Shown piece by piece: positions 7,049 to 54,251 of a stretch of DNA of 55,640 nucleotides. Position 1 is the first letter of the stretch. Each line of letters starts with the position of its first letter. Location of the stretch: positions 1-55,640 of the IMG/VR virus record IMGVR_UViG_3300042309_002031. The stretch is one strand, 5' to 3'. The notes under the pieces are model-generated. The model was not told where the DNA came from. It searched no databases and worked only from the letters and a program-made list of their open reading frames with translations. This DNA comes from a virus. The translations under genes and the position numbers were made by a program.

Positions 7049-7069
7049 GTTTTCTCTTTTAGGTATCTA

Positions 7070-9385
7070 TCAATAAACGCCCATTTTGAATTGAACCCCG
7101 GAGGGTCTCGTCTTCGCCATGGAAAATGTGAGATCTGTGCCATTGAATTTAATCATGGCTTTTTCGCTATAATCATAGCTTAAATAGGCTATTCTGTCAC
7201 TATCAGAAGCCGCCAAAAGCGTATTGGATTTGTCGTCAAAGTTTGACTTGTTAGTGTCTTGTACGGATCTGAACGACAAGGACGATGAATTTGCGCGCCC
7301 AACTTCCCAAGTGAGGGAGGTGTCATTCCAAGCACATATCTCTCCGGAGTTGTTAAACATGAATATTCCATTATACAAGGCAACTAACTGCCCCTCCAAT
7401 TTGACTGATCCTATCATGCTAGGTAGTTTGGTAATTGTTCCGTACGGATCCGAAACCGTTCCCTTTGTTTTGTAGAAGTCAGACAGTCTAAAGAACTCGT
7501 TCACCGACGAGTTTCTAAGAATGTATCCGATTGAATCCTTCCACGCCGTCTTGTACACGGCGAAGTAGCCGTTCGTAGCCACGTCGTCATCGTCAAAATA
7601 AGCGGGATGATCCAACAGCTCGTCCGCCCCATTCTCAAAACTGGAGGTCGTAAGATCCACAGGAGCAGAAGCCGACTGTGTCAGAATATCATAGTCTAAT
7701 CTCTGGGCCAACGCTTGGTTTTGTCCCGGAGTTGTTGCGGATCCTTGGCCGAATATGAAGTAAGTTCTGTCTTGTGAATTTAACGCAGCCCAATTCCAAG
7801 GTCTATTGGTTATTGAATTGACGCTATCATAATGATCGTCGAATGCATTGTACTTCTTGATATTTATGTTTTTGTCATCTACTACCGAGCCGCCCGATGC
7901 CCACATCAAAAGAGAATTGCCTTTGTTGCCCGAACTAGCCGTCCCAGCAAGCGTAAACTCCACATTTCTTCTGAACTCTTTCTTTGCTTTGCTGTAGGTC
8001 CCTTCAAAATAAGGTGCGTTGTCGTTCTCAACGCCATTCAAACTTGTATTTCCGTACGACAATGGACTCTGAGACAAAAAGGCGTCACTTCTGTTCAAAG
8101 AAAGCGTTTGGTTCCCTAGCGTCTTGAAGGTCTCGCTTCCGAGAGCAAACTCATAGGCTTGCACCGTGCCGCTGCCGTTGCTGTTGAGCGTCTTGAAGTT
8201 AAACAACCAAAGATTCTTGGATTCTATTATGTCTATAGAGTCCTTGTATTGGGTTATCCTGTAAGATCCATATTTTGTGTCTACACGAAGAATTACATCG
8301 TAGTATCCTCCCAAACTGTAAGAGGCTCTCGCTACGCTAGAGTTTGTGTGAGGCAGATCGTCTCCCAAAGACCAAGTGTACTCCTCTATGCTATCCATGG
8401 GCGTGCCCAAAAGTTCCCCGCCGTATGTGTACCCCGGGTTGTCGGGGTTTTCGCCGTCCGGAACCTCTATGTTTATGAAGGCATTTGCGATTGATCTTAT
8501 CTTCGGATATATTCCGTTCGGCAAGTCGCCTTGGCTATAATTCTGAGACGCTCTTGGTATTATTTTTATAACGGCTTCTTCCGGGGCGTCGTTCTTAGTG
8601 TTGATTAACTTTTCAAACACTACTTCGTTTTCCCCGTACTTGTTCTCCACGGTCAGTTTTACCGTGTACAGCCCCGGTGAAGAGTACGACTTTGCGAACT
8701 GTTTGCCAGAAATATCCACTCCGTTGATTGTTTGCTCCCTAGAAGCGTATTCTTCCATGGTTTGCGAAGTCACTTCCAGAAGAGGCGAACCATCCCCAAA
8801 ATCCCAAGTGTGCTTGAAGGGTCCGTCCCCGAGCCTAACGCTTTCGTCATTGAATCTGACTTTAAAAAAAGGATCCAGCCTCCCGATTGCACTATCTACC
8901 GTGAACCAAGCCTTAGGCGATAGCACCAAATCGTTCAGTAAGCTTATCCTAGCCGTTATGCTTGTTTCGCTTGGAGAGTATTTCGTCCCAACAAATTTTT
9001 CTATCTCAATAAGCGCGTCCTTCAGATAGTTGTGATGAAGGTCAAGCACATTCATTGTCACATTTGTTATTTTCTTTGGTTTTGATATTTCTAGTCCGAT
9101 GAATTCCGGAAGCAGTTCCAATTCGTCAAAACTCACGGATGTTCTTGAGTTGTAGTAAAAACTCAAGGCTCTTCTGTCTATGTCGCTGCACTGCTCCGTA
9201 AGAGTGATCACCCCGGTCGGCGGAAATTTTTTGATGACATTAGCGTCACCTTCCACCAATATGCTGGCATCCCCTGGTTTGTAGTCGTCTAGAAGTCTGA
9301 CTCTCAACGAATCGTGGACTAAGAAAAGATTTTTGTCGGTATCCAAAGAATTCGGAAAGTCGCTGGGTTTGGGTATGTTTGTCAT
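7070..9385 (-). CDS. Virion protein with two PKD-like domains and a repeat-rich C-terminal half
   Basis: A 771-residue protein. The N-terminus ([20 protein letters not shown]) matches those of the two neighbouring fibre genes, followed by the shared [16 protein letters not shown] element. The first PKD-like domain ([10 protein letters not shown] to [12 protein letters not shown]) lies near residues 165-260, and a second ([10 protein letters not shown] to [12 protein letters not shown]) near 330-370. The remaining half has repeated strands such as [11 protein letters not shown] and [12 protein letters not shown] that could form a propeller or sandwich. PKD domains commonly mediate binding to proteins or polysaccharides on surfaces; receptor binding is inference. 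Its start overlaps the stop of the upstream gene by four bases. Confidence 0.68.
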
Positions 9386-13386: not shown

Positions 13387-13878
13387 TTACCTCTTGAGTT
13401 TCCACAAATTATATAGGCCTAGTTCAAGAAAACTGCTCCACTCCTCTTCCTCGTCAGAATCGGCTTCTCTAGACCATTCTAGAACGGCCCGCCAGTCATC
13501 GCCGTAGTCGCCAAGAATCTCGTCGCCCTTTTTTGCGTCTTTTATGAAATGGTATACGCACACCATGTCTCCATTCTTCTTGATGTACCTTATCTCTACA
13601 TTTTGATCCTTTTTTTCATTGGCGTGGTTGACCATTCCTCCGTAGCCCATGGGAATTATGTGCTTCTTAAACGAGTCCGAATAGTCCGCGGCGAACTTGA
13701 ATGTATTGGCATACGAGGTGCAAACGTCAGCCGGAGAGTCCCTGTCCACCAAGACCCCGATCACCTCCAAGTGATTCCCCTTTTTTATATCTTCAGAGGC
13801 AAAAAGACCCAAGCCAGCATTTGGTTGAAGAGATTCTGCAACATAAAATCTTTTGTCTTTCTCTTCAATGCTAATCAA
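13387..13878 (-). CDS. SET-domain protein (putative protein-lysine methyltransferase)
   Basis: A 163-residue protein with the SET-domain order. GLGLFASEDIKKGNHLEVIG (about residues 23-42) is the N-terminal SAM-binding strand pair. MVNHANEKKDQNVEIR (about 82-97) carries the N-H of the knot. KGDEILGDYGDDW (about 116-128) has the catalytic-type tyrosine. The acidic C-terminus (EADSDEEEEW) follows. SET enzymes methylate lysines; a phage target or a host target is possible. It sits within the virion block and overlaps the next upstream gene by 8 bases. A second SET protein lies at 42306. Confidence 0.7.
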   Translation of the reverse strand: MISIEEKDKRFYVAESLQPNAGLGLFASEDIKKGNHLEVIGVLVDRDSPADVCTSYANTFKFAADYSDSFKKHIIPMGYGGMVNHANEKKDQNVEIRYIKKNGDMVCVYHFIKDAKKGDEILGDYGDDWRAVLEWSREADSDEEEEWSSFLELGLYNLWKLKR

Positions 13879-31960: not shown

Positions 31961-32422
31961 TTACATTGTGTTTGAAAGGTCTCCGGCGCTTCCGTTAACC
32001 ATTATCTTACTCTGCGGGTCGCCCGGGGTTGAATTTAACTCCTCTTGAGCCTCAGAACTTTTCTTGAAGAAGTTCTTGAACTCGTCCACGACCGCCTCCT
32101 TAATCTTCTCGGCAGCCTTTTCTCCCGACATGTCCGATATGAGGTCGGAAAAAATATCCTCTAGATCGAGCGAATAGGCTTGGCCATAGGGCTCGGTGGA
32201 ACTTTCGTTCTGTATCCTGTAAGCGAGGTTGGATCCGACCTTGTATATGCGCACGCCCTCGAAATTCAGTCCTTCTTGAGGACTTGAGAGGAAAATATAA
32301 GGACTATCGCTCTTGAGGAAGTCCTCTACTTTGAGTCCGCCATCCTTGAGTATGTCGCGTATTATCTCCAACTCCTCTCTGGCCCTCGCGTTTTTCTTGT
32401 CTATGAAGCTTGAAAATCTCAT
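31961..32422 (-). CDS. Unknown protein with capsid-targeting-like N-terminus
   Basis: A 153-residue protein starting MRFSSFIDKKNARAREE, with an AAGGTG site before the ATG. The first residues fit F-x-x-F-I, similar to the T4 capsid-targeting peptide. The rest is helical and acidic (AREELEIIRDILKDGG) with a central beta portion (EGVRIYKVGSNLAYRIQNES). No family recognised. Ends in a Ser/Gly-rich tail. Transcribed with 32425-34635. Confidence 0.6.
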   Translation of the reverse strand: MRFSSFIDKKNARAREELEIIRDILKDGGLKVEDFLKSDSPYIFLSSPQEGLNFEGVRIYKVGSNLAYRIQNESSTEPYGQAYSLDLEDIFSDLISDMSGEKAAEKIKEAVVDEFKNFFKKSSEAQEELNSTPGDPQSKIMVNGSAGDLSNTM

Positions 32423-32424
32423 TT

Positions 32425-32913
32425 TCACCTTGTGCTGTTGTAAAGGCTGGTCATCGTCTGTTTTTGATCTTCGCTGTTTTTCTTGTCATTCATGTACTTT
32501 GCGTAGGCTTGTTCTCTTTCCGAGAACTTTGGTGGATTAGGGCGCTTCCACTTGTAATGATCGCCCATTTTCACGTACCACATCGGAGGGGTTATCTGTT
32601 TACCCATATTGAAGGCTATCTGCCTATCCTTTAAGAATTCGCCAACCTTCTTCAACTGATAGTAGTACAAGTCGTAGTCTGAAATGTGATAGTCGGGACG
32701 CGGACCTATTCGGCTGTCAAATGGGATGTCGCTGAACTCACCTTGGGCATCCATAACCGGGGCTTGAGGCATTGCAGCCCCGACCTCTGACGGCCTCCCC
32801 AATAGTCCCGCCGCCGCCACCATAGGCATCACTGCTCTCTGCAATGACTTGGGGATCTTGACCTCGTCTAGCATTTCGGGGTGATTTTTCGCGAGATATT
32901 CTTCAAATTTCAT
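32425..32913 (-). CDS. Unknown protein with capsid-targeting-like N-terminus
   Basis: A 162-residue protein beginning MKFEEYLAKNHPEMLDE. F-E-E-Y-L fits the shared N-terminal peptide, and L-D-E at 15-17 matches the T4 prohead-protease rule. A hydrophobic alanine/proline-rich segment (VMPMVAAAGLLG) follows, then a tyrosine-rich part (YHISDYDLYYYQLKKV). It could be a packaged or head-related protein. Function unknown. Confidence 0.6.
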   Translation of the reverse strand: MKFEEYLAKNHPEMLDEVKIPKSLQRAVMPMVAAAGLLGRPSEVGAAMPQAPVMDAQGEFSDIPFDSRIGPRPDYHISDYDLYYYQLKKVGEFLKDRQIAFNMGKQITPPMWYVKMGDHYKWKRPNPPKFSEREQAYAKYMNDKKNSEDQKQTMTSLYNSTR

Positions 32914-34678: not shown

Positions 34679-35026
34679 ATGGACGAAGACCGCCCAGATT
34701 ATTCCTCGCTTCAAGAGTCAATTAATAAAGTAATAGACAAGGCAAAGTCAATCACAAAGAGAATCTCCGAAATGGAGAGGGAAATTGATGACTTGATTCG
34801 GTCAAAACACGATCTGGAGGCGAGGGTGAGAACCTTGGAGTCAGAAGACATTGAGGTCGTAAAAAAACAGTTGTATGAGATAGATAGTAAAGTCCGATCT
34901 TTCGAGTCGGATCACGACAAGAGAAGGCAGAGTTGGAACATGGTTCTCAACTTCTTCGTACAGTTGTTATGGGTTTCAATGGCCGCATGGCTACTAACAA
35001 AATTAGGACTACAAGGCCCTTTATGA
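34679..35026 (+). CDS. Coiled-coil protein with C-terminal membrane segment (XhlA/holin-like)
   Basis: A 115-residue protein. Residues 10-80 form a coiled coil (ITKRISEMEREIDDLIRSKH), and the C-terminus is one hydrophobic helix (VLNFFVQLLWVSMAAWLLTK) ending in a few polar residues. This architecture, coiled coil then one C-terminal helix, is that of XhlA-type holin accessory proteins, but it also occurs in other small phage membrane proteins. I chose the ATG at 34679 with AAAGG upstream; an in-frame TTG lies five codons earlier. Shares ATGA with the next gene. Confidence 0.5.
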   Translation: MDEDRPDYSSLQESINKVIDKAKSITKRISEMEREIDDLIRSKHDLEARVRTLESEDIEVVKKQLYEIDSKVRSFESDHDKRRQSWNMVLNFFVQLLWVSMAAWLLTKLGLQGPL

Positions 35027-35724
35027 ACTTCAAAGAATGGCTCTTATCTGAAATCGCGCAGAGAACAAAACTTTCTTCGGACACTGTTTCCGACAAAGCA
35101 ACTGCCTATGGGATTCCATTCGGAGGCGACAGAACTCCGGGTTTGGTCCAAGCGGCGGCCGGCGGTTTGGCAGGCGGTATAGGCCTTGGTGCTCGTAGAG
35201 CCTACGAACGTTCCGGAGGAGTTACAAGAGCAACTCCGCAAACAGCTGATCTTCCTTCACTGCCAAACAAAAAGGTTTCTGACGGTATTTCCTTGCCGCT
35301 ACAGTTGCCGGCCTTGCCCACGGATGAAAGTCCTTCGGGTAGACGCCAAGGCAATCCTCTATACAACATCACTTCCGCTTCGTGGAATGCTGTCAATAAT
35401 TTGACACACGACCCAGAAAATGATCCAAGAGTAAGAAAGGTTGGAGAATCCTTTAGAGAGGGAGATGGAAAATTCATCCCTCCGGCCTCTGGGAACCAAC
35501 AAGAACTAAACTTTGCAATATCTTTCACAAAGACCTTGATCCACATCATGACGGTTCAAAAGATGAATGATATTGACCCCGAGGTACTCAAGAAGTACGA
35601 CTTCGTAAATGCCCACACAGAAATGGAGCATGTCGATAAAGACAATGTTCTGACTTGTGTATTCTCTTTCAAGAAAAGAGACAACGTTCCGGACGGCATC
35701 AAGAGACAAAACGAACAAGATTGA
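35023..35724 (+). CDS. Unknown protein with capsid-targeting-like N-terminus
   Basis: A 233-residue protein beginning MNFKEWLLSEIAQRTK. F-K-E-W-L fits the shared peptide, and L-S-E at 8-10 fits the T4 prohead-protease rule exactly. A glycine-rich segment (AAAGGLAGGIGLGARR) follows, then a proline-rich linker and a C-terminal alpha/beta domain with FAISFTKTLIHIMTVQKMND. No catalytic motif recognised. The ATGA overlap couples it to the coiled-coil membrane protein. Good candidate for a packaged internal protein. Confidence 0.6.
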   Translation: MNFKEWLLSEIAQRTKLSSDTVSDKATAYGIPFGGDRTPGLVQAAAGGLAGGIGLGARRAYERSGGVTRATPQTADLPSLPNKKVSDGISLPLQLPALPTDESPSGRRQGNPLYNITSASWNAVNNLTHDPENDPRVRKVGESFREGDGKFIPPASGNQQELNFAISFTKTLIHIMTVQKMNDIDPEVLKKYDFVNAHTEMEHVDKDNVLTCVFSFKKRDNVPDGIKRQNEQD

Positions 35725-35739: not shown

Positions 35740-37239
35740 ATGAAATCATTCAAAGAATTTATAGCGAATAGAAACGTCATATCCGAGGAGACGGAGAAGA
35801 AGGAATGGCGTAAGGAATACATAAAACTAGAGAAAGGATTTGTTCCTCCTTCAAATTTGCGTCCAATCGTTCAAGCGTTTATCGACAGCGGATCAATATC
35901 TCTTACTAATGACATTTCATCCAAAGTGACCATGCCCAAGAAATCCTTGTTCTTGGTTGGAGGTCCCGTACGCGACTTTTTGCTCGGAAAGAAGTCCAAG
36001 GATCTTGATCTTGCAACAAATGCTACGCCCGAACAGATCGCCGTGATCCTCCACAACGCCGGGTTCTCTATGACGAAGGAAGATCCAAAATGGGATCTTC
36101 CTTTCAAGCCCAAGATTGCGGGCGATGACGATAACAAGAAATACTACTTGAAAGGAAGAGATTCTGCCGACAAACCGTTCGTCGTCGGCGCAGTTGTGAA
36201 TGGGGAGGAATTTGACGTCGCAACGTTCAGGAAGGACGCGAAGACCGTCAACGGCCAGTCGGAAGTTGACTTCGTGGACAATCCCCACGACGACGCTGAA
36301 AGAAGAGACTTTACCATCAACGCCATGTACATAGAGCTCAACAAGGCCGATGGAGAAAACAGCAAGCTTTATGACCCAACTAAATCCGGATACCATGACC
36401 TTCACTCAGGAATAATAAAGGCGGTTGGTAAAGCCGAAGCTCGATTCGACGAGGACAAACTCAGAGTCATGAGAGCAATAAGAATGCAAGCCAAGTACGG
36501 CAAGCAACCCATGAATCAATCTTTAAAGGATGCCATATCTAAGTTCTCGGACTTAGAGGGCGTGGCTTTAGAGAGAGTCCGAGAGGAATTCCTCAAGGGC
36601 CTAGAGGATCCGTTAGTAAATCCCAAAAAATATATAGTCATGTATTCTAGGCTCGGACTGTTGAAAAAAGTCCTTCCAGGAGTTCACCTTAACGCAGAAG
36701 TTCCTCCTCAATTGGCGGACAAAAAGGATAAGCATCTCGCCCTTGCGTGGATACTAAAAGACAATCCGATAGAAAGCGTGGAGCGAGCCCTTGGAAGAAA
36801 CAGAAAGATTGGCGACAGGGAGGCTCCTACCGGATGGTCTAATCAAGAAAGAGACATAGTCGTATATCTCCTCCGGCTCAAGGAATTCGACAAAGATCAA
36901 CTGGACGATCTTTTGAACAAGAAAAAGATTCTCGGCATCACCAAGGACCAGATTAAAAAATGGGTGGAACTATTTGACGTGGTGGACAAGCACACCGTCA
37001 GAACTCCACGTCCAAACTGGGCACAAAGTGTCAAGAGGTTCGCTGACTTTACGCCCGACCCTATGAAACTAGTAAGTTGGCACGCGAGGGACGAACAAGG
37101 AAATCCTACGACCGAAATTCACCCGGAGATCAAGACATTGGGCATGCACGATGTTCCGCCCCATTTCAGAGGATCTGTGGTGAAGGACATAAACAAAAAG
37201 AAGTTGCGTCAGATGTTCGACGACCAAGGCGCCGCTTGA
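35740..37239 (+). CDS. CCA-adding enzyme / poly(A) polymerase-like nucleotidyltransferase
   Basis: A 499-residue protein of the class II tRNA nucleotidyltransferase superfamily. GGPVRD at residues 74-79 and DLD at 88-90 form the nucleotidyltransferase site. ERRDFTINAM and KAVGKAEARFDEDKLRVMRA follow in the usual order, then a helical C-terminal part. Such enzymes add or repair the CCA end of tRNAs. Unusually, 60 residues precede the catalytic domain and begin MKSFKEFIANRNVISEE, with F-K-E-F-I and I-S-E as in the T4 capsid-targeting peptide. Good GAAGGAAG site. It ends directly against the convergent gene at 37240. Confidence 0.8.
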   Translation: MKSFKEFIANRNVISEETEKKEWRKEYIKLEKGFVPPSNLRPIVQAFIDSGSISLTNDISSKVTMPKKSLFLVGGPVRDFLLGKKSKDLDLATNATPEQIAVILHNAGFSMTKEDPKWDLPFKPKIAGDDDNKKYYLKGRDSADKPFVVGAVVNGEEFDVATFRKDAKTVNGQSEVDFVDNPHDDAERRDFTINAMYIELNKADGENSKLYDPTKSGYHDLHSGIIKAVGKAEARFDEDKLRVMRAIRMQAKYGKQPMNQSLKDAISKFSDLEGVALERVREEFLKGLEDPLVNPKKYIVMYSRLGLLKKVLPGVHLNAEVPPQLADKKDKHLALAWILKDNPIESVERALGRNRKIGDREAPTGWSNQERDIVVYLLRLKEFDKDQLDDLLNKKKILGITKDQIKKWVELFDVVDKHTVRTPRPNWAQSVKRFADFTPDPMKLVSWHARDEQGNPTTEIHPEIKTLGMHDVPPHFRGSVVKDINKKKLRQMFDDQGAA

Positions 37240-39718: not shown

Positions 39719-40621
39719 ATGCAACTTAAAATATGGGAAGTACACCCGAAGGCCTGCAGAATAGAGAAGGCCGAAAAGTCTTGCAAGGGCATCGCTAACC
39801 AAGCCGCCGTCCAATGGTGCGGCCCGTATGTCAACGCAAATCAGTCTGGATTCTGGGTCTATCCGCCTGTGGACATGGATTTTGTTTTAGATGACGGGAA
39901 ATTCAAGATAATTAACATGGAGGCGTACGACGATGAGGACTATCGCATCGTCCGCTCGCTCGTGAGACCAGAGGATCACTCCGATTTAGAGAAGTGGATA
40001 TTCCCTAATTCGGGACGGACAAAGATGACATTGGGTTTCGTAGAGCCCAATGTGATTCAAATCTGGACTGGCCTAATATTTCAGACCCCCCCAGGCTGGT
40101 GCCTTCACATACGAAGCCCAATAAACTTCCCGCCGCAAGGGTTTAGCCTCGTAGAGGCAGTTTTGGAGTCCGACTGGCTTCAGTATGATATATGGATGAA
40201 CTTGTCGGTGACGGAAGTTGGAAAGACCATATCTATACGCAAGGATGTTCCCATAGCACAACTCGTTCCAACGAGGAGAGAGAGTTTCAAGGGCGAATGG
40301 GAGGCGAATAGGGAGAGAATTAATCGGGATTCGGACGAAGCAGACAAAGTGTTTAGATACTGGTTGCACTACAACAAGCAGAAGTTTGAGTTCGGAGGCA
40401 ACCAAGCACTTACGGAAAACTTGACAAAGGACTCTACGACCTATTTCAGGGAAAGGAGTAGGCTCTTAGGCAAGGACATGGAGCCCTCGCAGAGTGTCGA
40501 TAAGTGTCCTCCCGCGCAGCCGAGTAAGTGCCCGTTCGCCCATCTCCACGGTCATCAAGAGACGCCGGAATACGAGGCGTTGGACAACTCCTTTATGAAG
40601 AAATTTTTCAAGACAACCTAA
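39719..40621 (+). CDS. DUF6065-like protein
   Basis: A 300-residue protein. Its order of WEVHPKA, VQWCGPYVNANQSGFWVYPP (about residues 32-51) and FPPQGFSLVEAVLESDWLQY, then WMNLSVTEVGKTISIRKDVP, fits proteins annotated DUF6065. No enzymatic role is known for these. The C-terminus has a cysteine pair region (KCPPAQPSKCPFAHLHGHQE) that may bind metal. I chose MQLKIWEVHP; an open frame extends 12 codons upstream but has no ribosome site. It shares its stop bases with the convergent patatin gene. Confidence 0.5.
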   Translation: MQLKIWEVHPKACRIEKAEKSCKGIANQAAVQWCGPYVNANQSGFWVYPPVDMDFVLDDGKFKIINMEAYDDEDYRIVRSLVRPEDHSDLEKWIFPNSGRTKMTLGFVEPNVIQIWTGLIFQTPPGWCLHIRSPINFPPQGFSLVEAVLESDWLQYDIWMNLSVTEVGKTISIRKDVPIAQLVPTRRESFKGEWEANRERINRDSDEADKVFRYWLHYNKQKFEFGGNQALTENLTKDSTTYFRERSRLLGKDMEPSQSVDKCPPAQPSKCPFAHLHGHQETPEYEALDNSFMKKFFKTT

Positions 40622-41442
40622 GATATCTTCATGTAATTAAGGAGTCCCCTTCTGTCCATCACTTGGTGGTGCGTCTTGCCGTATGTCACTCCCTCCTTGC
40701 ACCTATTGAAACTGACTGACTCAAAAAGCGTCTCGTTTGGCTGAACAAGGTGTATGCTTATTCCCTTATATCCGAATTCGCCCTCTTTCTTGAGGCATTG
40801 GTTGATGTCCCTCATCATGAACTCATTTAGACTTATGTCCAACGCCCGGTAAGCCATCTTTACCGCCCTCATGAATCCCGTGGGTCGCTTCCACTCGTCT
40901 ATCTCAAAGCGTCGCCCCATTATCACATAGATGTCTTGGCACCCGGCCTCAATGCACTGCTCCAAAGGTGCCAGTTGCCTGCTTCCGGCATCCACCCACC
41001 CGTTCCTGTCCTCGACTAAAGCGGTGATCGCGACACTCCCCAGAACGGCCTCGGCGAATTCTTCGGGCGACACGGACTTGTTCGAGACATAGTCCATCCT
41101 GCCGTCTTCAATGTTCATTCTCACAACGACGCTCTCGCATATTGGTTGATTTTTTACGGCGTTGTAGACAATCTTCTCCATGGGCCGCTGGTTCATGAGT
41201 CCGCTTCTCCAAGGAAAGTCATAATTAATTTTGAACACGTCGAATATGTTGCCTATGTTGCTCCACATGTCGGCAAGTCCTTGCGGCCCTAGAAAGGAAT
41301 ATGATGCTGCGCATATAGAGCCCGAAGAAACTCCTATGGTAAAGTCGGCATTCACGCCTCGCTCGTGTAGTCCGAGGGCTATACCCGCTTGTATTGATCC
41401 TCTTGCGCCCTCGCCCGTGAAGCAGAATCCTATTTTGCTCAT
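40618..41442 (-). CDS. Patatin-like phospholipase
   Basis: A 274-residue protein with all patatin hallmarks. GEGARG at residues 10-15 is the oxyanion-hole loop, GVSSG at 37-41 holds the nucleophile Ser39, and DAG at 151-153 holds the dyad aspartate. Patatins hydrolyse membrane phospholipids or lipid acyl chains. No signal peptide is present, so it would act on the cytoplasmic face or be delivered by another route. Possible roles are host membrane change or lysis. Its ATG overlaps the stop of the Gly/Lys-rich gene upstream (ATGA). Confidence 0.78.
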   Translation of the reverse strand: MSKIGFCFTGEGARGSIQAGIALGLHERGVNADFTIGVSSGSICAASYSFLGPQGLADMWSNIGNIFDVFKINYDFPWRSGLMNQRPMEKIVYNAVKNQPICESVVVRMNIEDGRMDYVSNKSVSPEEFAEAVLGSVAITALVEDRNGWVDAGSRQLAPLEQCIEAGCQDIYVIMGRRFEIDEWKRPTGFMRAVKMAYRALDISLNEFMMRDINQCLKKEGEFGYKGISIHLVQPNETLFESVSFNRCKEGVTYGKTHHQVMDRRGLLNYMKIS

Positions 41443-41795
41443 TTTTCATTTCCCTTTTTTGATTTCTTTCCTTTCTTCTTTCTACGCTTCTTCTTGCAGT
41501 TGCCGCAGTTGCAATGCGGATAGCAATATCCACATCCGATGACTGAGGGGCGAATCGCGATTGAACTTGAAGTCGTTCCTGTGCTCGGAGGAGGCGTCGT
41601 CGAACCTCCGGATGAAGACCCGTCCCCACCACCAGTCCCACCCCCAGAGTCCCCACCCCCAGAGTCCCCACCCCCAGAGTCCCCACCACCAGCAGCCCCA
41701 CCACCACCAGCACCTCCACCAGCAGCTCCACCAGCGGCTCCACCACCACCAGCGGCTCCATCTTCTCTTAGCCTAACCCATTCAGAAAATTTCAT
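41439..41795 (-). CDS. Gly-rich/Lys-rich protein with capsid-targeting-like N-terminus
   Basis: A 118-residue protein. It starts MKFSEWVRLREDGAAGG; F-S-E-W-V and L-R-E at 9-11 fit the shared peptide and the prohead-protease rule. Residues 12-70 are mainly Gly, Ala, Ser and Asp in repeats. A cysteine motif (CGYCYPHCNCGNC) comes next, then a very basic tail (KKKRRKKKGKKSKKGNEK). The tail could bind DNA. A GAGGT site precedes the ATG. Encoded just upstream of the patatin, with which it overlaps. Confidence 0.65.
   Translation of the reverse strand: MKFSEWVRLREDGAAGGGGAAGGAAGGGAGGGGAAGGGDSGGGDSGGGDSGGGTGGGDGSSSGGSTTPPPSTGTTSSSIAIRPSVIGCGYCYPHCNCGNCKKKRRKKKGKKSKKGNEK
41590..41760 (-). repeat. Gly/Ala/Ser-coding simple repeats
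   Basis: CCACCACCAG-like and CCCCCAGAGTCC-like units recur; the latter is repeated three times in a row. They encode GDSGGGDSGG and GGAAGG runs in the protein starting at 41795. Confidence 0.75.
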
Positions 41796-42305: not shown

Positions 42306-42845
42306 TCACAGCGGCCTATAGACTTGTTTGTCTTTAATTTCTACCACAGGGGTCTCCATCATCGTAGGAGGTTTGATGGGAGGAATCTGATCCTTGATTT
42401 GGGACGAAGGCTGCGCTGGTGACTCTATCGTTATCTTCTGTTTATTCTTGAAGTAGTTCGGCCCATAATTGACAAATATTTCTTGTCCCTTTTTTATTTT
42501 TTTTACGGCCCTTATATCAGCAATTTGATTCTTTAGGTCAAAGCGAATCTCGGCGCTGTTATCATCTTGGTGATTGTAAATCTGACCGTATCCCATGACC
42601 ATGAGAAAATGTCCGCCGTGCTTCTTGCAATCATCGCAAGGACATGTATTCGTGAACATATAGTTCCAAATCACAGGATCCTTGTGGTAGTTCATTCTAA
42701 ATCCCATTACCACCAAGGGAGCACGCTCCACGATCTCTCCCGGAACTATATCTTCAGTAGCAAAAACTCCTCTTCCTTGAAGGCTAGAATACCCAAGTTC
42801 TATCTTCTTGGGGAGGTTTAATTTCGGCTTTTCGTCTTTATCCAT
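42306..42845 (-). CDS. Second SET-domain protein
   Basis: A 179-residue protein. GRGVFATEDIVPGEIVERAP (about residues 24-43) is the first SET strand pair, MGYGQIYNHQDDNSAEIRF (about 88-106) carries the N-H knot, and KKGQEIFVNYGPNYF (about 118-132) the catalytic-type tyrosine. Between the first two motifs lies CPCDDCKKHGGH, possibly a metal site. It differs from the SET protein at 13387 and does not look like a recent duplicate. Predicted activity is protein-lysine methylation. The start lies only 4-6 bases from an ATATATT box, with no ribosome site between. Confidence 0.72.
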   Translation of the reverse strand: MDKDEKPKLNLPKKIELGYSSLQGRGVFATEDIVPGEIVERAPLVVMGFRMNYHKDPVIWNYMFTNTCPCDDCKKHGGHFLMVMGYGQIYNHQDDNSAEIRFDLKNQIADIRAVKKIKKGQEIFVNYGPNYFKNKQKITIESPAQPSSQIKDQIPPIKPPTMMETPVVEIKDKQVYRPL

Positions 42846-43110: not shown

Positions 43111-44148
43111 TTATAAGTTTTTTGACCTTTCTACAATCGCCTTCTCATGGCTCTCCTTCGCCTTGAAAACTTGATCTAAACTGCATCCTTCTGTGCTTTT
43201 CGCGAGATCAAGCGGAAGAAGTTTCATTCTGGTTTCAAGGCTAGGGTTCGCGAAGTGTTTGACATATTTAAACCGTGACGGTCTGTTTTTGAGCGCCTCG
43301 TCGACTTTATCCAAGTCGTTCACAGTCATGATGAAGACCACATTCTCGTGCGTCGTGTAAGCGCCATCAAGACCATTCAATATGATGTCAAAAGTGAACT
43401 TGATAGACTTATTGTCGCCGCCAATTATGCATGTTCTCTTGTCGAAATAGTTATCAAAGTCCTCGAACAGAACAATGCAGCCTTTTGGTATCTGGGCAAA
43501 TATAAGAAGGAGGTCGTGATTGGTCCAGTCTGGGTTCAACGTGAATATCATCATGGGAAGTCTGTACTTTGAAGCCAAGTACTTTATGCAAAAACTCTTC
43601 CCGTTTCCTGGTGATCCGTAAAGAAGAGCGCTCGTTTTCTTCCTTTTCCCTTCAACCACCTCGGCGACTTCGTTCTCGAAGTCCCTCCAAAGGCTCTCCT
43701 CAAATATCGGCTCTGCGAATGTCTCTTTTAAAGATCCTATTTTGTCGGTTCCGTACGGAAGCATTAGTTGCACGGGTACGCCGAGGGTGCAGAGTTGCAT
43801 CTCCTTCAACTTTGTCCTCAAAAATGACTTCAACTTGTCGTAATTCCATCTGAAGCAGGTCAGTACAGTCACGTGATCCTTCTCGTTGAACCCCGCTTGC
43901 ATGAGCCTTTCTGAGTGGTTCATGTGGAACCACGGCGCCCCCTTGAAGAAACAAAAAGCCACATATGCCACCGGATGCCTATTCTCTGATACGAACTCCT
44001 CGTAAATCATGAACTTCTTTTCGCTCCCACACAAGTCGTAGACCGTCTTGTATGTGTTGGAATCCACTCTCATCTCTACGAGAAGAATATATTTAAAAAA
44101 GGCCCACATCCCCACGAATGAGGCTAGCAAAGTGAATATTGTTGTCAT
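43111..44148 (-). CDS. BCS1-like AAA+ ATPase with N-terminal membrane segment
   Basis: A 345-residue protein. Residues 3-24 form a membrane helix (IFTLLASFVGMWAFFKYILL). A middle domain of about 140 residues follows, then the AAA+ core: Walker A (YGSPGNGKS, about 175-185), Walker B (CIVLFEDFDNYF, about 225), sensor 1 (VVFIMTVNDLDKVD) and an arginine region (KNRPSRFKYV). This order (membrane helix, own domain, AAA core) is that of BCS1-type ATPases, which move folded proteins across membranes or remodel complexes. In a phage it might act at the inner membrane; the substrate is unknown. The upstream in-frame TTG at 44154 is less likely as start. Confidence 0.75.
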   Translation of the reverse strand: MTTIFTLLASFVGMWAFFKYILLVEMRVDSNTYKTVYDLCGSEKKFMIYEEFVSENRHPVAYVAFCFFKGAPWFHMNHSERLMQAGFNEKDHVTVLTCFRWNYDKLKSFLRTKLKEMQLCTLGVPVQLMLPYGTDKIGSLKETFAEPIFEESLWRDFENEVAEVVEGKRKKTSALLYGSPGNGKSFCIKYLASKYRLPMMIFTLNPDWTNHDLLLIFAQIPKGCIVLFEDFDNYFDKRTCIIGGDNKSIKFTFDIILNGLDGAYTTHENVVFIMTVNDLDKVDEALKNRPSRFKYVKHFANPSLETRMKLLPLDLAKSTEGCSLDQVFKAKESHEKAIVERSKNL

Positions 44149-44180: not shown

Positions 44181-44402
44181 TCAATCTCGGGACTGATCAA
44201 TTGCTCTTCTATTTCTAGACGATCTGGATCCTTGATCTTTTTTAGATTTGAATGTCGTGTCCCTACGTCCCGAAACTTGTCGCTGCGGACTCGGCTCGGA
44301 AAGTTCGACCTTATTGGTCTTCTCCTTGGGCATCTGCACCGGGACGGACTTGCCCTTTGCCTCCGTCATTAACCTCTGTTCTAGCCAAGATGAAAATTGC
44401 AT
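44181..44402 (-). CDS. Small basic protein resembling T4 internal proteins
   Basis: A 73-residue protein. It starts MQFSSWLEQRLMTEAKGKS; F-S-S-W-L fits the capsid-targeting-like peptide, and M-T-E at 12-14 is close to the prohead-protease rule, leaving A-K-G-K at the new end. All that follows is polar, highly charged and low in complexity (QRQVSGRRDTTFKSKKDQGS). This design, targeting peptide plus small basic body, is that of T4 internal proteins IPI-IPIII, which are packaged with DNA and injected. GAGGG precedes the ATG; the open frame upstream crosses the divergent promoter and is not used. Similarity is in design, not in sequence. Confidence 0.6.
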   Translation of the reverse strand: MQFSSWLEQRLMTEAKGKSVPVQMPKEKTNKVELSEPSPQRQVSGRRDTTFKSKKDQGSRSSRNRRAIDQSRD

Positions 44403-44440: not shown

Positions 44441-44448
44441 TATATATT
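44441..44448. promoter_or_regulatory. TATATATT box between divergent genes
   Basis: Six bases separate its end from the ATG at 44455 on the plus strand, with no ribosome site in between. In the other direction TATATAC lies 38 bases before the minus-strand gene at 44402. Confidence 0.5.
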
Positions 44449-44454
44449 TTCACT

Positions 44455-45975
44455 ATGGATTTTTCAATTTGGCTCTTTACAGAAGAACAGCAAAAATACG
44501 TCAGAACCAGAAAGGACATCAGTCCCAAGAACCCAGCAAACAGTTTTCTGGTGCTCTACGGGGCGGACAAACAAGAAAAAGATTTGATGTTTTCGTTCAA
44601 GGATGAACTGAGGAGAATGGGGTTCGGATACTACAGGCCAGCAGGAACCTACTCCATCTTCTCGGCGAAAGTTGACGACGCCATGAGAAACAAACTTTCT
44701 CAACTAGGCGTGGATTTAAGCGGATACGATAGTGGACAAGTAGTGACATCAGTCCCCAAAACAACACAACCGGAGACGCCGGCGGATCAAAATCTAGAGC
44801 AAATGCACAATGAGCTGTCCAAGGTCATTGCGGACGACCCAAAAACTCAAGAACTCATAGACAGCATAGAAAGAATGATAGAACGGATAGCCAACAGCAC
44901 CGACGAGGCGGCCAAACAGGCCTTTATTAGAAACTTTTTCCAATTTGCCGGAAAGTTCTACGACTACAGCATGCATAACCAGTTCTTGATTTGGATACAG
45001 ACCAAGGGAAGGGCCAACTACGTAGCCACAGAGAATCAGTGGACCGAAAGATTCGGAAGGGCCGTCCGAGACCATAAATCCTTCATATCCCTACTCAGGC
45101 CAAATAACACCAATGACAAAAAGAAAGAATCCGATGACAAAAAGAAAGAGCCCGCTTTGGAATTAGATTCTGATACGACAAAGAAGAAAACGGGTAGGTT
45201 GTTCTTTACGGCCTACAAAGTCTACGACGTAAGCGCGACTGTTCCCATCCCCGGCCACCCCAGCCCCTTTGAGCCCATGACCAGGAAACAGTGGAGCGTG
45301 GATTCGAACGAAGACGTGGAAGAGGTCAAGCAATACATAGCGGCCTTGAGCGACTGGGCCAAAGAAAACAATATAAACGTAGCCTACGAGGAACTTGATC
45401 CCGAACTTGGAGGCTATTCGGCGGGCGGAAAGGTTGCCATCAACAACGTTTTCAAGGGAATCAACCATTTTAGCACGTTTGTCCACGAAGTCGCCCATGA
45501 AATCCTCCACTGGAAGGACAAGGACAAAAAGAGCACCAAGATGGAGAAAGAGATAGACGCTGAAAGTACTGCCTTCATCGTACTCAGCCACTTCGGTTTC
45601 GAAACCAAAGACACGAGCAACTATCTGGCCATGTGGCGAGCGAAAGGAGACGACATCAGGGCGAGGAGGCGCAACATCCAGAAGGCATCGGAAGAAATAA
45701 TCAACGGCATAAAGAGCAAAATGACAGAGGAACAGCCTAAAGAGGAGTCAGACATAGAAGAAAACACGCAACACAACTCGGCGATCATCAAAGTCTATAG
45801 AGCGGACGGAGTGATACACGCCAACATAAACGGCGAAGAAAAGAAGTTTGAGGTTGATAAATTCTACTTCCAAGAACTGAGGGATTCCAAGAACGCATAC
45901 AAGACGCTCATGGAGCTAGTTCGCAAGGGCTACGCCAGCGAATTGACCTCTCCAAAGAGACCCGCAAACGATTAA
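44455..45975 (+). CDS. ArdC-like antirestriction protein with metallopeptidase domain
   Basis: A 506-residue protein. The N-terminus (MDFSIWLFTEEQQKY) fits the capsid-targeting-like peptide. Near residues 170-215, YSMHNQFLIWIQTKGRANYV, then WTERFGRAVRDHKSFISLLRP and the VYDVSATVP segment, match the ArdC N-terminal ssDNA-binding domain. HEVAHEILHW at 344-353 is a zinc HExxH motif as in the ArdC peptidase domain. ArdC of plasmid pSA protects incoming DNA against restriction. A lysine-rich insert (KKKESDDKKKEP) splits the N-terminal domain, and an extra 90 residues follow the peptidase. ArdC is usually about 300 residues, so this is a long form. I infer it travels in the head and acts on entry. 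Confidence 0.72.
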   Translation: MDFSIWLFTEEQQKYVRTRKDISPKNPANSFLVLYGADKQEKDLMFSFKDELRRMGFGYYRPAGTYSIFSAKVDDAMRNKLSQLGVDLSGYDSGQVVTSVPKTTQPETPADQNLEQMHNELSKVIADDPKTQELIDSIERMIERIANSTDEAAKQAFIRNFFQFAGKFYDYSMHNQFLIWIQTKGRANYVATENQWTERFGRAVRDHKSFISLLRPNNTNDKKKESDDKKKEPALELDSDTTKKKTGRLFFTAYKVYDVSATVPIPGHPSPFEPMTRKQWSVDSNEDVEEVKQYIAALSDWAKENNINVAYEELDPELGGYSAGGKVAINNVFKGINHFSTFVHEVAHEILHWKDKDKKSTKMEKEIDAESTAFIVLSHFGFETKDTSNYLAMWRAKGDDIRARRRNIQKASEEIINGIKSKMTEEQPKEESDIEENTQHNSAIIKVYRADGVIHANINGEEKKFEVDKFYFQELRDSKNAYKTLMELVRKGYASELTSPKRPAND

Positions 45976-45993: not shown

Positions 45994-46566
45994 TCATATA
46001 AACTTTGCCTTTGACACGTTCATTCTTGGAAATCGCTCAATTGGAACATCTTTTTCAAGAAACGAACAGAGAGGCTTCCATCCTTCTTTGATTGACATGA
46101 TCAATAATTTATTCTTTTGATTTGAGAAGTGTTCAATTATCGCCTTTTTTCTTTGTAGAAATTTTTGAACAAGAAATTCTTTGTCGTTTGTATGAAGACA
46201 TCCTATGTTTTGAAGTCTTGCGTAGTGAAATATAGTAAAGTTGTCTATTTTTGTTGTTTGCGAATGATCCACAGATGATAATTGGTAAATTGTTGATTTT
46301 GCCCAATCGCTTTCATCTCTGTCAAGATAGATGAATTTTGCTCTTGGATATGCTTTTTCTAATTGGTAGTAAGCGAAATTTAATAGTCCACAAACTGCGT
46401 CAAAATCTTTGAATAGATTCAAATTCATATTGTTTTGTAGCAATTTTGAAATTGTATCTTCTTCGTATTTTGCCGGGCACCCATGACAAGAATTAAATCC
46501 CAATACGGAAAGGGCTTTACATAGACTTGTCGTGCCTGTTTTGGCAGAACTTATGTCGAATATCAT
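45994..46566 (-). CDS. Sulfotransferase family protein
   Basis: A 190-residue protein. SAKTGTTSLCKALSVLGFNS at residues 6-25 is the PAPS-binding 5'-phosphosulfate loop, and YPRAKFIYLDRDESDWAKS (about 93-111) the 3'-phosphate strand-helix with Arg and Ser. EGWKPLCSFLEKDVPIERFP is the typical end of the Sulfotransfer_4 type. It would transfer sulfate from PAPS to a sugar or peptide, perhaps a surface glycan. I chose the ATG of MIFDISSAKTG because the family starts just before the loop; a TTG at 46611 has GGAGGTC in the wrong place. The gene is visibly more AT-rich than its neighbours, a sign of recent transfer. Confidence 0.75.
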   Translation of the reverse strand: MIFDISSAKTGTTSLCKALSVLGFNSCHGCPAKYEEDTISKLLQNNMNLNLFKDFDAVCGLLNFAYYQLEKAYPRAKFIYLDRDESDWAKSTIYQLSSVDHSQTTKIDNFTIFHYARLQNIGCLHTNDKEFLVQKFLQRKKAIIEHFSNQKNKLLIMSIKEGWKPLCSFLEKDVPIERFPRMNVSKAKFI

Positions 46567-46656
46567 TCTATTAAAGTAGTTATACAAAAGCAAAGCGCGT
46601 TCGGAGGTCAATTCTTGATGAATCGCCGCTACGCAAAATCGACTTTCTTGAATAAG

Positions 46657-47289
46657 TCAAGACCTATGTTGCTTTAAGACCTCCCTATACCTTTTGTGGA
46701 GCGATTTTACATTGCTCACCCCCTTGGCCGCCTTTTTACTTATCTCCGTCGCCATATATGCTTGAATCTCGTCCTTCAAGACGCCGGAGCAGTAACCCAT
46801 ATTCTTGAGGTTTTTTTTGAACTTTTGGAGATTCGCTTTCGAGATCGATGCTGTTATTTCGTCCATCTCTACCTTGTATACTATATCAGTGTAGTATAGG
46901 GCATGACACAGTTCATGTTCGAATGTCGAGTTTTTTAATGAATCCACACCTATCAAATACTTTCTTTCCCCCGGCACAAAAAGTTCATCGACGATCTGCT
47001 TCATCTCTGTGTCGTAGGGTGTTTCTGCTTCATTCATCTGGTAGCACTTCTTCGCCACGATCAGCGGAAGATTAAAGCCGACGAAGTCCTTGACATACGA
47101 GAAACACCCGGCATTATTCTTGCTGTACCACTCGTAATAGTCCCATATGGAAAACTTCTTGTTCCTAAAATTTAAGTTGGGGCTCTCGTAAAACTCTTGA
47201 ACTCGACAGAAAAGCATGGCTCTGTCGTAGTTGTCGGGAACAACCAGTGCGATCACGTTGCCGCATATGGTTTTAACCTTGTATTTCAT
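46657..47289 (-). CDS. HExxH zinc metalloprotein, putative peptidase
   Basis: A 210-residue protein with STFEHELCHALYYTDIVYKV (about residues 121-140). The HELCH motif would bind zinc and activate water, and a later acidic residue in LKDEIQAYMATEI (about 171-183) could be the third ligand. No signal peptide. It is the last gene of a six-gene overlapping operon and shares ATGA with the caspase-like gene. Proteins of this shape occur in phages without known substrate. A processing partner of the caspase-like protein is possible. Confidence 0.6.
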   Translation of the reverse strand: MKYKVKTICGNVIALVVPDNYDRAMLFCRVQEFYESPNLNFRNKKFSIWDYYEWYSKNNAGCFSYVKDFVGFNLPLIVAKKCYQMNEAETPYDTEMKQIVDELFVPGERKYLIGVDSLKNSTFEHELCHALYYTDIVYKVEMDEITASISKANLQKFKKNLKNMGYCSGVLKDEIQAYMATEISKKAAKGVSNVKSLHKRYREVLKQHRS

Positions 47290-48245
47290 CTTGCTATCGG
47301 TACGGGAACGAAGTTGATGTCAAACTCCTCCCGCCTCCCGAAATTCTTGATGGGCAAAGTCTGTACATACCAAGGACCGAACAGAAGTTCTCCGAACATG
47401 GAGTTGCCGGGAAGTATCTTGTAGTGCGGCTGCTGGCCTGAAGATCCGTGACTTTCGGCGAACTTCTTGAGGAACTCTCCGACAGTAACGCTTTTGTCAT
47501 TCCTTATGGACTTAAATGTGGAAGCCAACCTAGACGCGAACGCCCCTCTCACAGACAAGTCCTCCACGCTCGACGAACTGATTATCAGTATTTCGTCATA
47601 AACCCCGGAGTCCTCACCGTAGTCTATCTGGGCGTCCATTACCTTTTTTCCTGACTGCTCTATCGGATTCAAAAATACGGAGAGGAAAGGAAGGTCATTC
47701 CTGGAATAGGCGGAAGGAAGCTCGGGCAAGAAACTAGTCGGCTTGGCCGTTTTTATATTCCTCAATAGGTCGCCGTCTTGCTTGAGGCTGTCTTGTATGC
47801 TTCCCTCGGCGTGGCATGTATCGACCAAGAATATCAAGCGGCTTATCTTTCTGTCCGCCTTCTTCAAAGCCTCTAGAGCCTTGCTGAATTTAAAACTACC
47901 GCCTTGGGCAGTCATCGCGAACCGGTCGCCGCTGCCTCCCCCGTGGCTGTTGAAATAAAGCAAGAGAGTCGCTCCATCCTCCAATCCCGAGGCAAGCTGC
48001 GTCAACTTCCCATAAATGTACGGCGAAGAAACATTGTGATGACGCTCAGATGTGAACCCCAGCGACTTGTCGGCGAATATGCTTTCCATTAGTTCCAAAT
48101 TGCGAATTCTTCCGCCCTCGTCTGTCATGGTGAACAAGGCAGCCACATTATTCATGCCCGGATTTATGGCAATCCCCGTCTTCTCTTGCGCCGTTGCTAC
48201 CACATGACACAAAAGACAAGCGATGAATGCAATCTTCTTAATCAT
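47286..48245 (-). CDS. Secreted caspase-like protease (peptidase C14 fold)
   Basis: A 319-residue protein. MIKKIAFIACLLCHVVATAQ is a signal peptide with an A-T-A cleavage site. The caspase dyad is visible: LLLYFNSHGGGSGDRF with His near residue 101, and LIFLVDTCHAEGSIQDS with Cys near 144. The C-terminal half continues with DEILIISSSSVEDLSVRGAF, as in bacterial caspase homologues (orthocaspases), which cleave after Arg/Lys or Asp. An exported caspase-like protease in a phage is unusual; it may cut host envelope proteins or receptors. A strong GGAGGTGG site lies at the end of the upstream gene, which it overlaps by 8 bases. Confidence 0.75.
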   Translation of the reverse strand: MIKKIAFIACLLCHVVATAQEKTGIAINPGMNNVAALFTMTDEGGRIRNLELMESIFADKSLGFTSERHHNVSSPYIYGKLTQLASGLEDGATLLLYFNSHGGGSGDRFAMTAQGGSFKFSKALEALKKADRKISRLIFLVDTCHAEGSIQDSLKQDGDLLRNIKTAKPTSFLPELPSAYSRNDLPFLSVFLNPIEQSGKKVMDAQIDYGEDSGVYDEILIISSSSVEDLSVRGAFASRLASTFKSIRNDKSVTVGEFLKKFAESHGSSGQQPHYKILPGNSMFGELLFGPWYVQTLPIKNFGRREEFDINFVPVPIAR

Positions 48246-51600: not shown

Positions 51601-53115
51601 ATGTTCAAAAAATGGCTTATAGATGAAGAGCAAAGACAAGAGATAAACTGGGCTATATCCAGCAACATATCTGACCTCCTACCTTTGTACCTAATAGAGT
51701 CAAAGTTGGAGAAAGAAGAGGAGGCATACAAGCCAAAGCATCCCTCTTACAGCATAATAGGCGGCGGCGACACAAACCCGAAGACCGCCATACATCCGGA
51801 GACCAAACAGACTTATCTCGGAGCCGTTCTGCATCTTGAGCCCTATATGGCTTCGGGCGAACAGACGTGCCCTTTTGCTACCGCGATATATAAGATCACC
51901 GTCAAAAACCTAGATCCGCAAACTATGCAATTGATCAAATCGACACCCGGATACGAAGAAGTTTATGGAAATCATGTCTTCTACGGTTTCGAACTCAGGT
52001 CCAAGGATAAGGACTCGGGATGGGGAAAGGTCTCCGATACACTCCTACCGAAAGACAGACAAGCTCAATGCCCCTTGAGGATGAAGATAAGGCTCCCCGG
52101 ATCAAACCTAAGAGACTGGACGACCGGCCAAACAATACAACTAAGCAGAAGCGACATAGTGCACTCTGATCTCGTGGGAGGTTGCGCCAACGCGTGCCTC
52201 CACACCAGCGGTAATCCGGCACAAGCAAGCGGCAAACTCACTTCTAGGAGAAGGAAGACCTTGGAATTGAAAAATGACTCCGAGGGCTTCATGAATAAGG
52301 TCCTGCTAGATGTTTTTAGATTATCCCAATCGGCTGAGAAACAAGGCCACAAACCCGTCATCAGACTCAACGCCACAAGCGATGAGGCTTGGGAAAGGGA
52401 TTACAAGTTCCCCGAAGATCCAGCGAAGACGGAGAGCATGATAAGGACTCAATGGCCTAAGAAGTTAAGGGGCGAACTGGCCGCTCACATCCGTAAAATG
52501 ATCAACTTCCAATCTAATAGGTTTGAAGACGCAATTCCAGAAATCGCCAAATATGTAAGTGGAAAGACACTGATGGAGGTTTTTCCCGAAGTCCAATACT
52601 ATGACTACACGAAGAACCCTTCTAGAATGGTACAGTACATAAGGTCTAGAAACGGAAGAACAGGAAATTGGCCCAAGAATTACCATCTCACTTTCAGCTT
52701 AGCCGAAGATAACAGAGAAATTGCAAAGAAAATACTTGCGGACGGCGGAACTGTAGCGGCCGTATTCAACGTAGAGAAGAACCCCAGTAAAGAAGGAGAT
52801 CTTCCAAAGACGTGGGCGGGCTTCCCTGTAATAGACGCCGACAAGCACGATTACAGATTCTTGGATGCCCCGGGCCATATAGCCGGACTGCGGGCCAAAG
52901 GCGAAGCAAAGTTTCAAAGTACCGACTTTGGATTCGTCATACAGCCCGACGATCCCGAACTAGATCCGGAAGACCCGGCCGTAATTCAAGCCAAGAAATA
53001 CTCGGACAACTTTGAGAGAAGAATAAGCAGCGGAGAATTAAAGTCTCGCCCTGGGTCAATAAGAGGAAGAATGAGGGCCGCCGGAAAAGCGACCGGAAAC
53101 GCTGTTTACTACTAA
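51601..53115 (+). CDS. GP88-like protein with capsid-targeting-like N-terminus
   Basis: A 504-residue protein. It begins MFKKWLIDEEQRQEIN; F-K-K-W-L and I-D-E at 7-9 fit the shared peptide and the prohead-protease rule. VGGCANACLHTSGNPAQ, then RRRKTLELKNDSEGFMNKVL, HKPVIRLNATSDEAWE and the later YYDYTKNPSRMVQY with YHLTFSLAEDN follow the order in 'Gene product 88' (PF17338) proteins of phages. Those have no known function, though the C-x-x-x-C and barrel-like strands recall radical-SAM or TIM-barrel proteins. The C-terminus is basic (SRPGSIRGRMRAAGKATGNA). No ribosome site: the TATATA box lies 4 bases upstream. Confidence 0.62.
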   Translation: MFKKWLIDEEQRQEINWAISSNISDLLPLYLIESKLEKEEEAYKPKHPSYSIIGGGDTNPKTAIHPETKQTYLGAVLHLEPYMASGEQTCPFATAIYKITVKNLDPQTMQLIKSTPGYEEVYGNHVFYGFELRSKDKDSGWGKVSDTLLPKDRQAQCPLRMKIRLPGSNLRDWTTGQTIQLSRSDIVHSDLVGGCANACLHTSGNPAQASGKLTSRRRKTLELKNDSEGFMNKVLLDVFRLSQSAEKQGHKPVIRLNATSDEAWERDYKFPEDPAKTESMIRTQWPKKLRGELAAHIRKMINFQSNRFEDAIPEIAKYVSGKTLMEVFPEVQYYDYTKNPSRMVQYIRSRNGRTGNWPKNYHLTFSLAEDNREIAKKILADGGTVAAVFNVEKNPSKEGDLPKTWAGFPVIDADKHDYRFLDAPGHIAGLRAKGEAKFQSTDFGFVIQPDDPELDPEDPAVIQAKKYSDNFERRISSGELKSRPGSIRGRMRAAGKATGNAVYY

Positions 53116-53708: not shown

Positions 53709-54251
53709 ATGACGAGTTTTGCCAAATATTTCATAACAAGAGAATTGAAGGGTTTGGAAGTTTCCGGGGTACTCTCCGAATCCGCTAAATCCCTTCAAAT
53801 CGGGCGCCTCAAAGAAAAATATGCGGGGCACTTTTACGATAAGTTCCCCAAGGCGCAGTACGAAGACATAGAAGAGGCCCTCCACGATTCCTTTGAAAAG
53901 GTCATGGTCGGCAAACACGACGCAAGATCGGCAGAAAACCTCTTCAAAAAAATGGTCGACGACAGCCTTTCCGGCCTCCGCAGAAAGAAAAGCACCGCGA
54001 AAAAGAGCCTATCTTGCGTGAAAGTCCTCAAATCCTTGGGATCCGATATGCCCTCGCTAATCAAGAGAGCGGAGAGGATGCTCACAAGCCAAGAAAAGAA
54101 GATCATAGAAATGTGCTCCCAAGGAAAGTCGGTCAGATCCATAGGTTCGGAACTCGGAATTTCCGCCGCTACCGCGTGGAGATCCCTCAACGATGGACTG
54201 GACAAAATCAGACTCTCGTATGGTATGAAATCAAGAAAATTAGGAAGATAA
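53709..54251 (+). CDS. Sigma-70-like transcription factor
   Basis: A 180-residue protein with the outline of a small sigma factor. A region-2-like helix set lies at about 35-95 (YDKFPKAQYEDIEEALHDSF, then ARSAENLFKKMVDDSLSGL). A region-4-like helix-turn-helix at about 125-170 has LTSQEKKIIEMCSQGKSVRS, then IGSELGISAATAWRSLNDGL. ECF sigma factors have this size, and T4 late genes use a small sigma, gp55. I infer that it may recognise the TATATA boxes in this window. It is the only candidate regulator seen. Confidence 0.7.
   Translation: MTSFAKYFITRELKGLEVSGVLSESAKSLQIGRLKEKYAGHFYDKFPKAQYEDIEEALHDSFEKVMVGKHDARSAENLFKKMVDDSLSGLRRKKSTAKKSLSCVKVLKSLGSDMPSLIKRAERMLTSQEKKIIEMCSQGKSVRSIGSELGISAATAWRSLNDGLDKIRLSYGMKSRKLGR

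Follow-up and report, generated by a model that had tools for sequence, protein, structure and literature searches.

An ArdC-like protein of an uncultured virus with a T4-like capsid-targeting-type N-terminus: a candidate internal head protein

The sequence analyzed here, which we refer to as the window, is a 55,640-base record of an uncultured virus with contractile-tail genes, including baseplate wedge proteins and a 2199-aa candidate for the tape-measure protein. At 44455..45975 on the plus strand it carries an ArdC-like gene of 506 aa with an ATG start (the stop codon is included in the coordinates). Genes in the window and in related contigs were called with our own simple codon-usage script. 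Orthologues of the ArdC-like ORF occur at 76% identity in three contigs and 63% in a fourth, with others at 46-56% identity in further contigs, and the ORF is a genuine, conserved gene. In an alignment-based search we found the ArdC-type HExxHxxLH core at 80 viral loci. Neither NCBIfam nor PHROGs assigned it to a useful family, and no protein with its architecture was found among annotated phages. For the form that carries the N-terminal tag described below, the 'phages' collection of cultured phages yielded only partial matches to the core, at less than 32% identity.

Beginning at the N-terminus, the protein consists of a short tag (aa 1-13, 44455..44493), an alpha/beta domain (aa about 16-95, 44500..44739), an ArdC-N domain of the ssDNA-binding type (aa about 109-260), a gluzincin domain of the IrrE/ArdC type (aa 288-425, 45316..45729) and a C-terminal alpha/beta domain (aa about 440-498, 45772..45948), all on the plus strand. 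The original prediction had recognized an ArdC-type DNA-binding segment and a HEVAH zinc motif, and both are borne out by profile and alignment evidence. The Pfam model ArdcN (PF08401) matches aa 131-257 (44845..45225) with an E value of 1.2e-6 and 29.2 bits against a curated cut-off of 22.6, a cut-off that the orthologues L002 and L004 also pass. The gluzincin domain is recognized by alignment and by fold matches, with a sub-threshold Peptidase_M78 match to L004 (E 4e-4). The HEVAH motif lies at aa 344-348 (45484..45498), and across 36 diverse sequences the residues that do not vary are S172, N175, Q182, W196, H344, E345, H348, H352, E366 and E370. The zinc ligands in ArdC of plasmid R388 are H201, H205 and E229 (PMC7213743), and the third ligand here is probably E370 (45562-45564). 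In the phage clade the ArdC-N motif is partly degenerate.

We modeled the protein with AlphaFold using the alignment of 36 sequences, which gave a mean pLDDT of 82; an alignment of the five close orthologues alone gave 38. A structural comparison with ArdC had been proposed as one check on the original prediction, and the result was positive, with R388 ArdC as the top solved match (6i89 and 6sna, Foldseek E 6e-7 and 5e-6). By VIA-align, R388 ArdC matches the model with Z 9.2-9.6 over aa 149-425, while IrrE reaches Z 7.0 over one domain. IrrE/PprI follows ArdC in the ranking of PDB folds and Spartan comes lower, with the peptidase domain alone. Superposing both domains on R388 ArdC gives an rmsd of 17 Å, so the relative placement of the domains either differs or is poorly predicted. 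A sequence search of the PDB with a five-sequence profile returned nothing useful, and a fold search of BFVD returned no full-length match.

Two further domains flank this core. The one at aa about 16-95, which the original prediction did not mention, is modeled with pLDDT mostly above 85 and has an equivalent in the same position in phage relatives; we tentatively call it DUF5710-like, as the relative L072 alone gave a match to this family, which was below threshold (E 0.0011). The extra C-terminal domain that had been predicted is present in the model, and we also found it as a standalone copy in contig G016, where a 73-aa protein consists of this domain alone (E about 1e-12) and starts MNFFEWILFEE. 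A lysine-rich insert had been noted as well, and it exists as a loop within ArdC-N (aa 222-246, 45118..45192, plus strand). Because this loop is modeled with low confidence (pLDDT about 45) and is much shorter in relatives, it is not a conserved feature, and we rejected it as a functional one: it is variable and disordered, and we give it no weight.

The first 13 residues, MDFSIWLFTEEQQ, are modeled with pLDDT below 50. Their start, MDFSIWLF, had been likened to a capsid-targeting sequence, and this resemblance is above chance, as the start is kept in six orthologues and the pattern is enriched on unrelated N-termini. In the clade, the start is kept as MxF[SRK]xW[LF] in 6/6 orthologues, the window copy being MDFSIWLFTEE. 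The internal proteins IPII and IPIII in the T4 record NC_000866 have the start MKTYQEFIAEA. In T4, residues 4 and 7 serve targeting and residues 8 and 10 serve processing, and the prohead protease gp21 cleaves after L/I-x-E (PMC9026906). The window tag has F-T-E at this place, which does not fit the strict T4 triplet, while other ArdC starts do fit it: L-N-E in G005, L-E-E in G006 and L-K-E in G007. Cleavage of the tag by a prohead protease after E10 or E11 is possible. In the ArdC-like proteins L066 and L069 we noted C-terminal ends (for instance ESFKSFLLKNY and ESFKSFFNRKVLSE) that look similar to the N-terminal tag, as though a tag might also be placed near the C-terminus.

We searched for the tag on other proteins using the pattern M-x(1,2)-[FY]-x-x-[WFY]-[LIVF] in six contigs (the window and G003-G007), excluding ArdC and taking internal methionine sites as the control. 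The pattern occurs at 36/346 N-termini compared to 5/2113 internal methionines (p 1.7e-26). We had seen it in these genomes before testing it, although it has the spacing of T4 IPII and IPIII. Because the contigs share genes, we repeated the count with one protein per family, which gave a median of 21/184 N-termini and 3/873 internal methionines (p about 7e-14, 3e-11 in the worst draw). Including ArdC, 24 protein families have at least one tagged member, and the tagged proteins of one genome showed no convincing similarity to each other beyond the tag. Half of the tagged N-termini (18/36) also have an [LIFV]xE triplet near residues 8-12, compared to 40/310 of the untagged ones (p 8e-7). In T4 itself, the strict pattern is found in 5/252 called genes, counting downstream methionines, and IPII and IPIII are among them. 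An unsupervised EM motif search on the N-termini without ArdC placed the G006 and G007 ArdCs in the top 0.05-0.3% of the null, while the window ArdC was average (0.52 of null sites scored as high); the motif weights K/E at positions where the window protein has S/I. We count this average score, like the F-T-E of the window tag, against head carriage.

In the window, tagged genes on the plus strand are 35023..35724 (MNFKEWLLSE), a tRNA nucleotidyltransferase at 35740..37239 (MKSFKEFIAN), a GP88 family gene (PF17338) at 51601..53115 (MFKKWLIDEE) and 53709-54251, whose product MTSFAKYFITRE has a C-terminal match resembling a helix-turn-helix or sigma region 4. On the minus strand we found two in the structural operon, at 31961..32422 (MRFSSFIDKK) and 32425..32913 (MKFEEYLAKN), a glycine-rich one at 41439..41795 (MKFSEWVRLRE), and one divergent from ArdC at 44181..44402 (MQFSSWLEQRL, from the ATG at 44402). 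Some tagged genes adjoin the tape-measure gene, and there is no evident reason for packaging a tRNA nucleotidyltransferase. Such bearers are contrary to an expected list of injected defence proteins and leave room for another meaning of the tag.

The head genes of the group are of the T4 type. The 143.6-kb relative G004 encodes a T4-type portal (phrog_213, E 3e-77), a gp21-type protease (phrog_207, E 7e-50) and a terminase, and portal and protease of these families were found in G004, G007, G013, G017, G018 and G021, with the protease also in G015; these contigs are phage relatives whose ArdC is extended at the N-terminus. Neither was found in the conjugative-element-like contigs that were tested. 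They were also not seen in the window, which, like several other fragments, does not cover these genes. In G007 the ArdC gene (682-1974) is downstream of the protease and portal; the gene in the major-capsid position (5994-7439) is on the same strand, and ArdC follows it at a distance of about 4 kb. When a tree was built from the core only, leaving out the N-terminal region, the ArdCs of T4-head-type phages separated from the proteins of other viral contigs (98/93). The phage ArdCs in this split have the tag and a domain in front, while most of the others begin at or near ArdC-N.

Other lineages appear to have starts of their own. Contig G010 belongs to another, more distant phage type and yielded no T4 portal. 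Its ArdC begins with MNWYKIVKIA, and the products of three neighbours in the operon begin with MNWYKQIKLA, MNWYRQIKLA and MNWYRQIKLA, giving a common tag MNWY[KR]xxKxA. One pair among these neighbours is paralogous (41% identity), and the proteins are otherwise unrelated beyond the tag. The G017 ArdC starts LILENIYTEM, resembling the LESLY- or LESIY-type starts of neighbours at 149507 and 151912; the enrichment of the LExIY-type pattern in this lineage (11/373 compared to 8/1348, p 6e-4) is weak, and the pattern was chosen after looking. Together with the standalone protein in G016, these observations fit an exchangeable address tag.

Upstream of the ArdC-like gene, a putative T4-late-promoter-like TATATAT (44441..44447, plus strand) ends 7 nt before the start codon. 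The same element precedes ArdC in G003 and G005 and is absent before ArdC in G004, G006 and G007; the tail operons of G003 (L023), G005 (L130) and G006 (L133) also have it ahead of their first gene. ArdC, several tagged genes and the tail operon have elements of this type about 5-15 nt upstream of their start codons. They look like T4 late promoters, and would yield nearly leaderless mRNAs. Because their enrichment before tagged genes is modest (14/59 compared to 30/293, p 0.006) and three of the six contigs lack the element in front of ArdC, we treat the late promoter as a hint only.

Several neighbouring genes deserve mention in their own right. Beside ArdC, an AAA+ ATPase with a hydrophobic N-terminus, BCS1-like in outline, is encoded at 43111-44148 on the minus strand. 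A caspase-family protein (Peptidase_C14, E 2e-8) with a signal-peptide-like start lies at 46657-48203, also on the minus strand, and is adjoined by a gene for a small HELCH-motif protein; similar genes are found beside ArdC in G003, G004 and G005. The window also encodes a patatin-like phospholipase, two SET-domain proteins and a sulfotransferase (40618-41442, 42306-42845, 13387-13878 and 45994-46611, all on the minus strand). Contig G006 has a DUF1559 protein (E 1e-40) and a GH18/CBM2 enzyme (L133:5701-6636 and L132:3666-7616, both on the minus strand). DUF1559 is typical of Planctomycetota, and its presence in G006 hints at a host in this phylum.

The ArdC core, the tag, its occurrence on unrelated proteins and the T4-type head genes of the group can be read directly in the sequences. 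Carriage in the head, as originally predicted, is likely in our judgment, based on the enrichment of the tag, the six tagged orthologues, the T4-type portal and protease, the split in the core tree and the tag shared in G010. The best explanation that we can offer is an internal head protein in the style of T4, similar to IPI and built on an ArdC core, a reading whose chances we rate as close to balanced but somewhat short of it. Loading, tag removal, ejection and protection of the DNA are the steps that we infer. The protein would be expressed late from its own promoter, after which its first ~10 residues, to judge from the shared pattern, would probably attach to the scaffold core and thereby bring the folded protein inside the prohead. 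The prohead protease would then cut off the tag behind a glutamate at about residue 10-11. On infection the protein would be ejected with the DNA and, by analogy with ArdC, its ArdC-N domain would bind single-stranded or damaged phage DNA and might shield it from restriction. Antirestriction is plausible, and we are less confident of it than of head carriage.

R388 ArdC counters HsdRMS only when it is expressed in the recipient, expression in the donor gives no rescue, and its protease activity is dispensable (PMC7213743). These results contest the claim in the original prediction that ArdC can travel with plasmid DNA, and they are a point against a head-delivered ArdC; delivery from the head would place the protein in the recipient at entry. 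The original interpretation is supported in part: the structural match to ArdC stands and head targeting has gained comparative support, while the plasmid-transport argument is disputed and the lysine-rich insert is set aside. The activity of R388 ArdC made in the recipient would also suit an ordinary cytoplasmic counter-defence protein, made early and with an incidental N-terminus. We consider this improbable given the conservation and enrichment of the tag; the T4-late-like TATATAT that precedes the gene in three of the six contigs also speaks against it.

There are two other explanations. The tag may address another structure or complex of the phage, such as a replication site, the membrane or tail assembly, with the ArdC-like protein acting inside the infected cell; the tagged tRNA nucleotidyltransferase, the tagged genes beside the tape-measure gene and the membrane-type AAA+ gene adjoining ArdC (see above) all suit such an address. 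We regard it as rather unlikely, however, as the spacing of the tag is that of the T4 IPII/IPIII signal, these phages have T4-type heads, and triplets that resemble glutamate cleavage sites are enriched where they would be expected. It is also unlikely, in our view, that the protein is a head-delivered metallopeptidase whose main job is something other than antirestriction, namely the IrrE/PprI- or Spartan-like cleavage of a DNA-bound host protein (a repressor, a repair protein or a defence protein) immediately after entry. This protease reading stays a candidate because the catalytic HExxH...E is fully conserved in the 36 sequences; the partly degenerate ArdC-N motif of the phage clade agrees with it, as does the fact that IrrE and Spartan come after ArdC as the next solved structures that make biological sense. 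Against it, the nearest fold over both domains is that of ArdC, with IrrE matching less well and over only one.

Returning to the IPI-like internal head protein, a broader version would be that T4-head phages captured an ArdC lineage anciently and load it into the head by means of each lineage's own N-terminal tag (MxFxxWLxxE, LxxIY or MNWYKxxKxA), as one of about two dozen tagged, head-delivered families. We offer this version as a tentative proposal that is somewhat doubtful as a whole. If it is true, the tag reveals a whole set of injected proteins from sequence alone. If the head-protein reading is right, ArdC, known from plasmids as an antirestriction protein, also has a phage branch that is delivered from the head as T4 IPI is, and two separate antirestriction themes are joined. 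The tag would then make it easy to compile candidates for head delivery from the genomes of uncultured T4-head phages. On the same reading, the ArdC-like protein may enter the host with the phage DNA and blunt host defences.

The closest known relative is ArdC of R388/pSa (6i89, 6sna), which has ArdC-N and the gluzincin domain in the same order, the HExxH and the downstream glutamate. In contrast, identity is 14%, the window protein adds the tag, the N-terminal domain, the loop insert and the C-terminal domain, and proteins of its type are found in T4-head phages instead of a conjugative plasmid. Polyvalent proteins with ArdC-N and MPTase have the identical core domain pair, and those of phages are predicted to be packaged, although ArdC-N is described as rare in the phage-type ones (PMC5512222); unlike them, the window protein is short, carries a tag and comes from a T4-head lineage. 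A survey of jumbo phages reported ArdC-like peptidases in some of them, with no loading route (PMC7824862), and we found no tagged, head-addressed ArdC in the limited library of literature that we searched.

The original prediction had named the packaged Dar proteins of phage P1 as a precedent. In the P1 system (DarA, DarB, DdrA, DdrB, Hdf and Ulx), antirestriction proteins are delivered from the head, and DarA and Hdf bind the inner capsid wall (PMC12810830). The likeness lies in the proposed head delivery of antirestriction proteins with the DNA; the proposed loading route differs from the DarA-Hdf binding, and Pfam and PHROGs scans detected no Dar-family domains on the window protein. The T4 internal proteins IPI, IPII and IPIII differ in other ways: only the tag is in common, they are about 100-200 aa compared to 506 aa, and the window protein, a candidate for packaging, has W where they have F as the second aromatic, and F-T-E in place of L/I-x-E. 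They share with it the aromatic-x-x-aromatic start at residues 3/4 and 6/7, and with its group the T4-type portal and protease. As a restriction inhibitor carried in the head, T4 IPI is the better precedent (PMC9026906).
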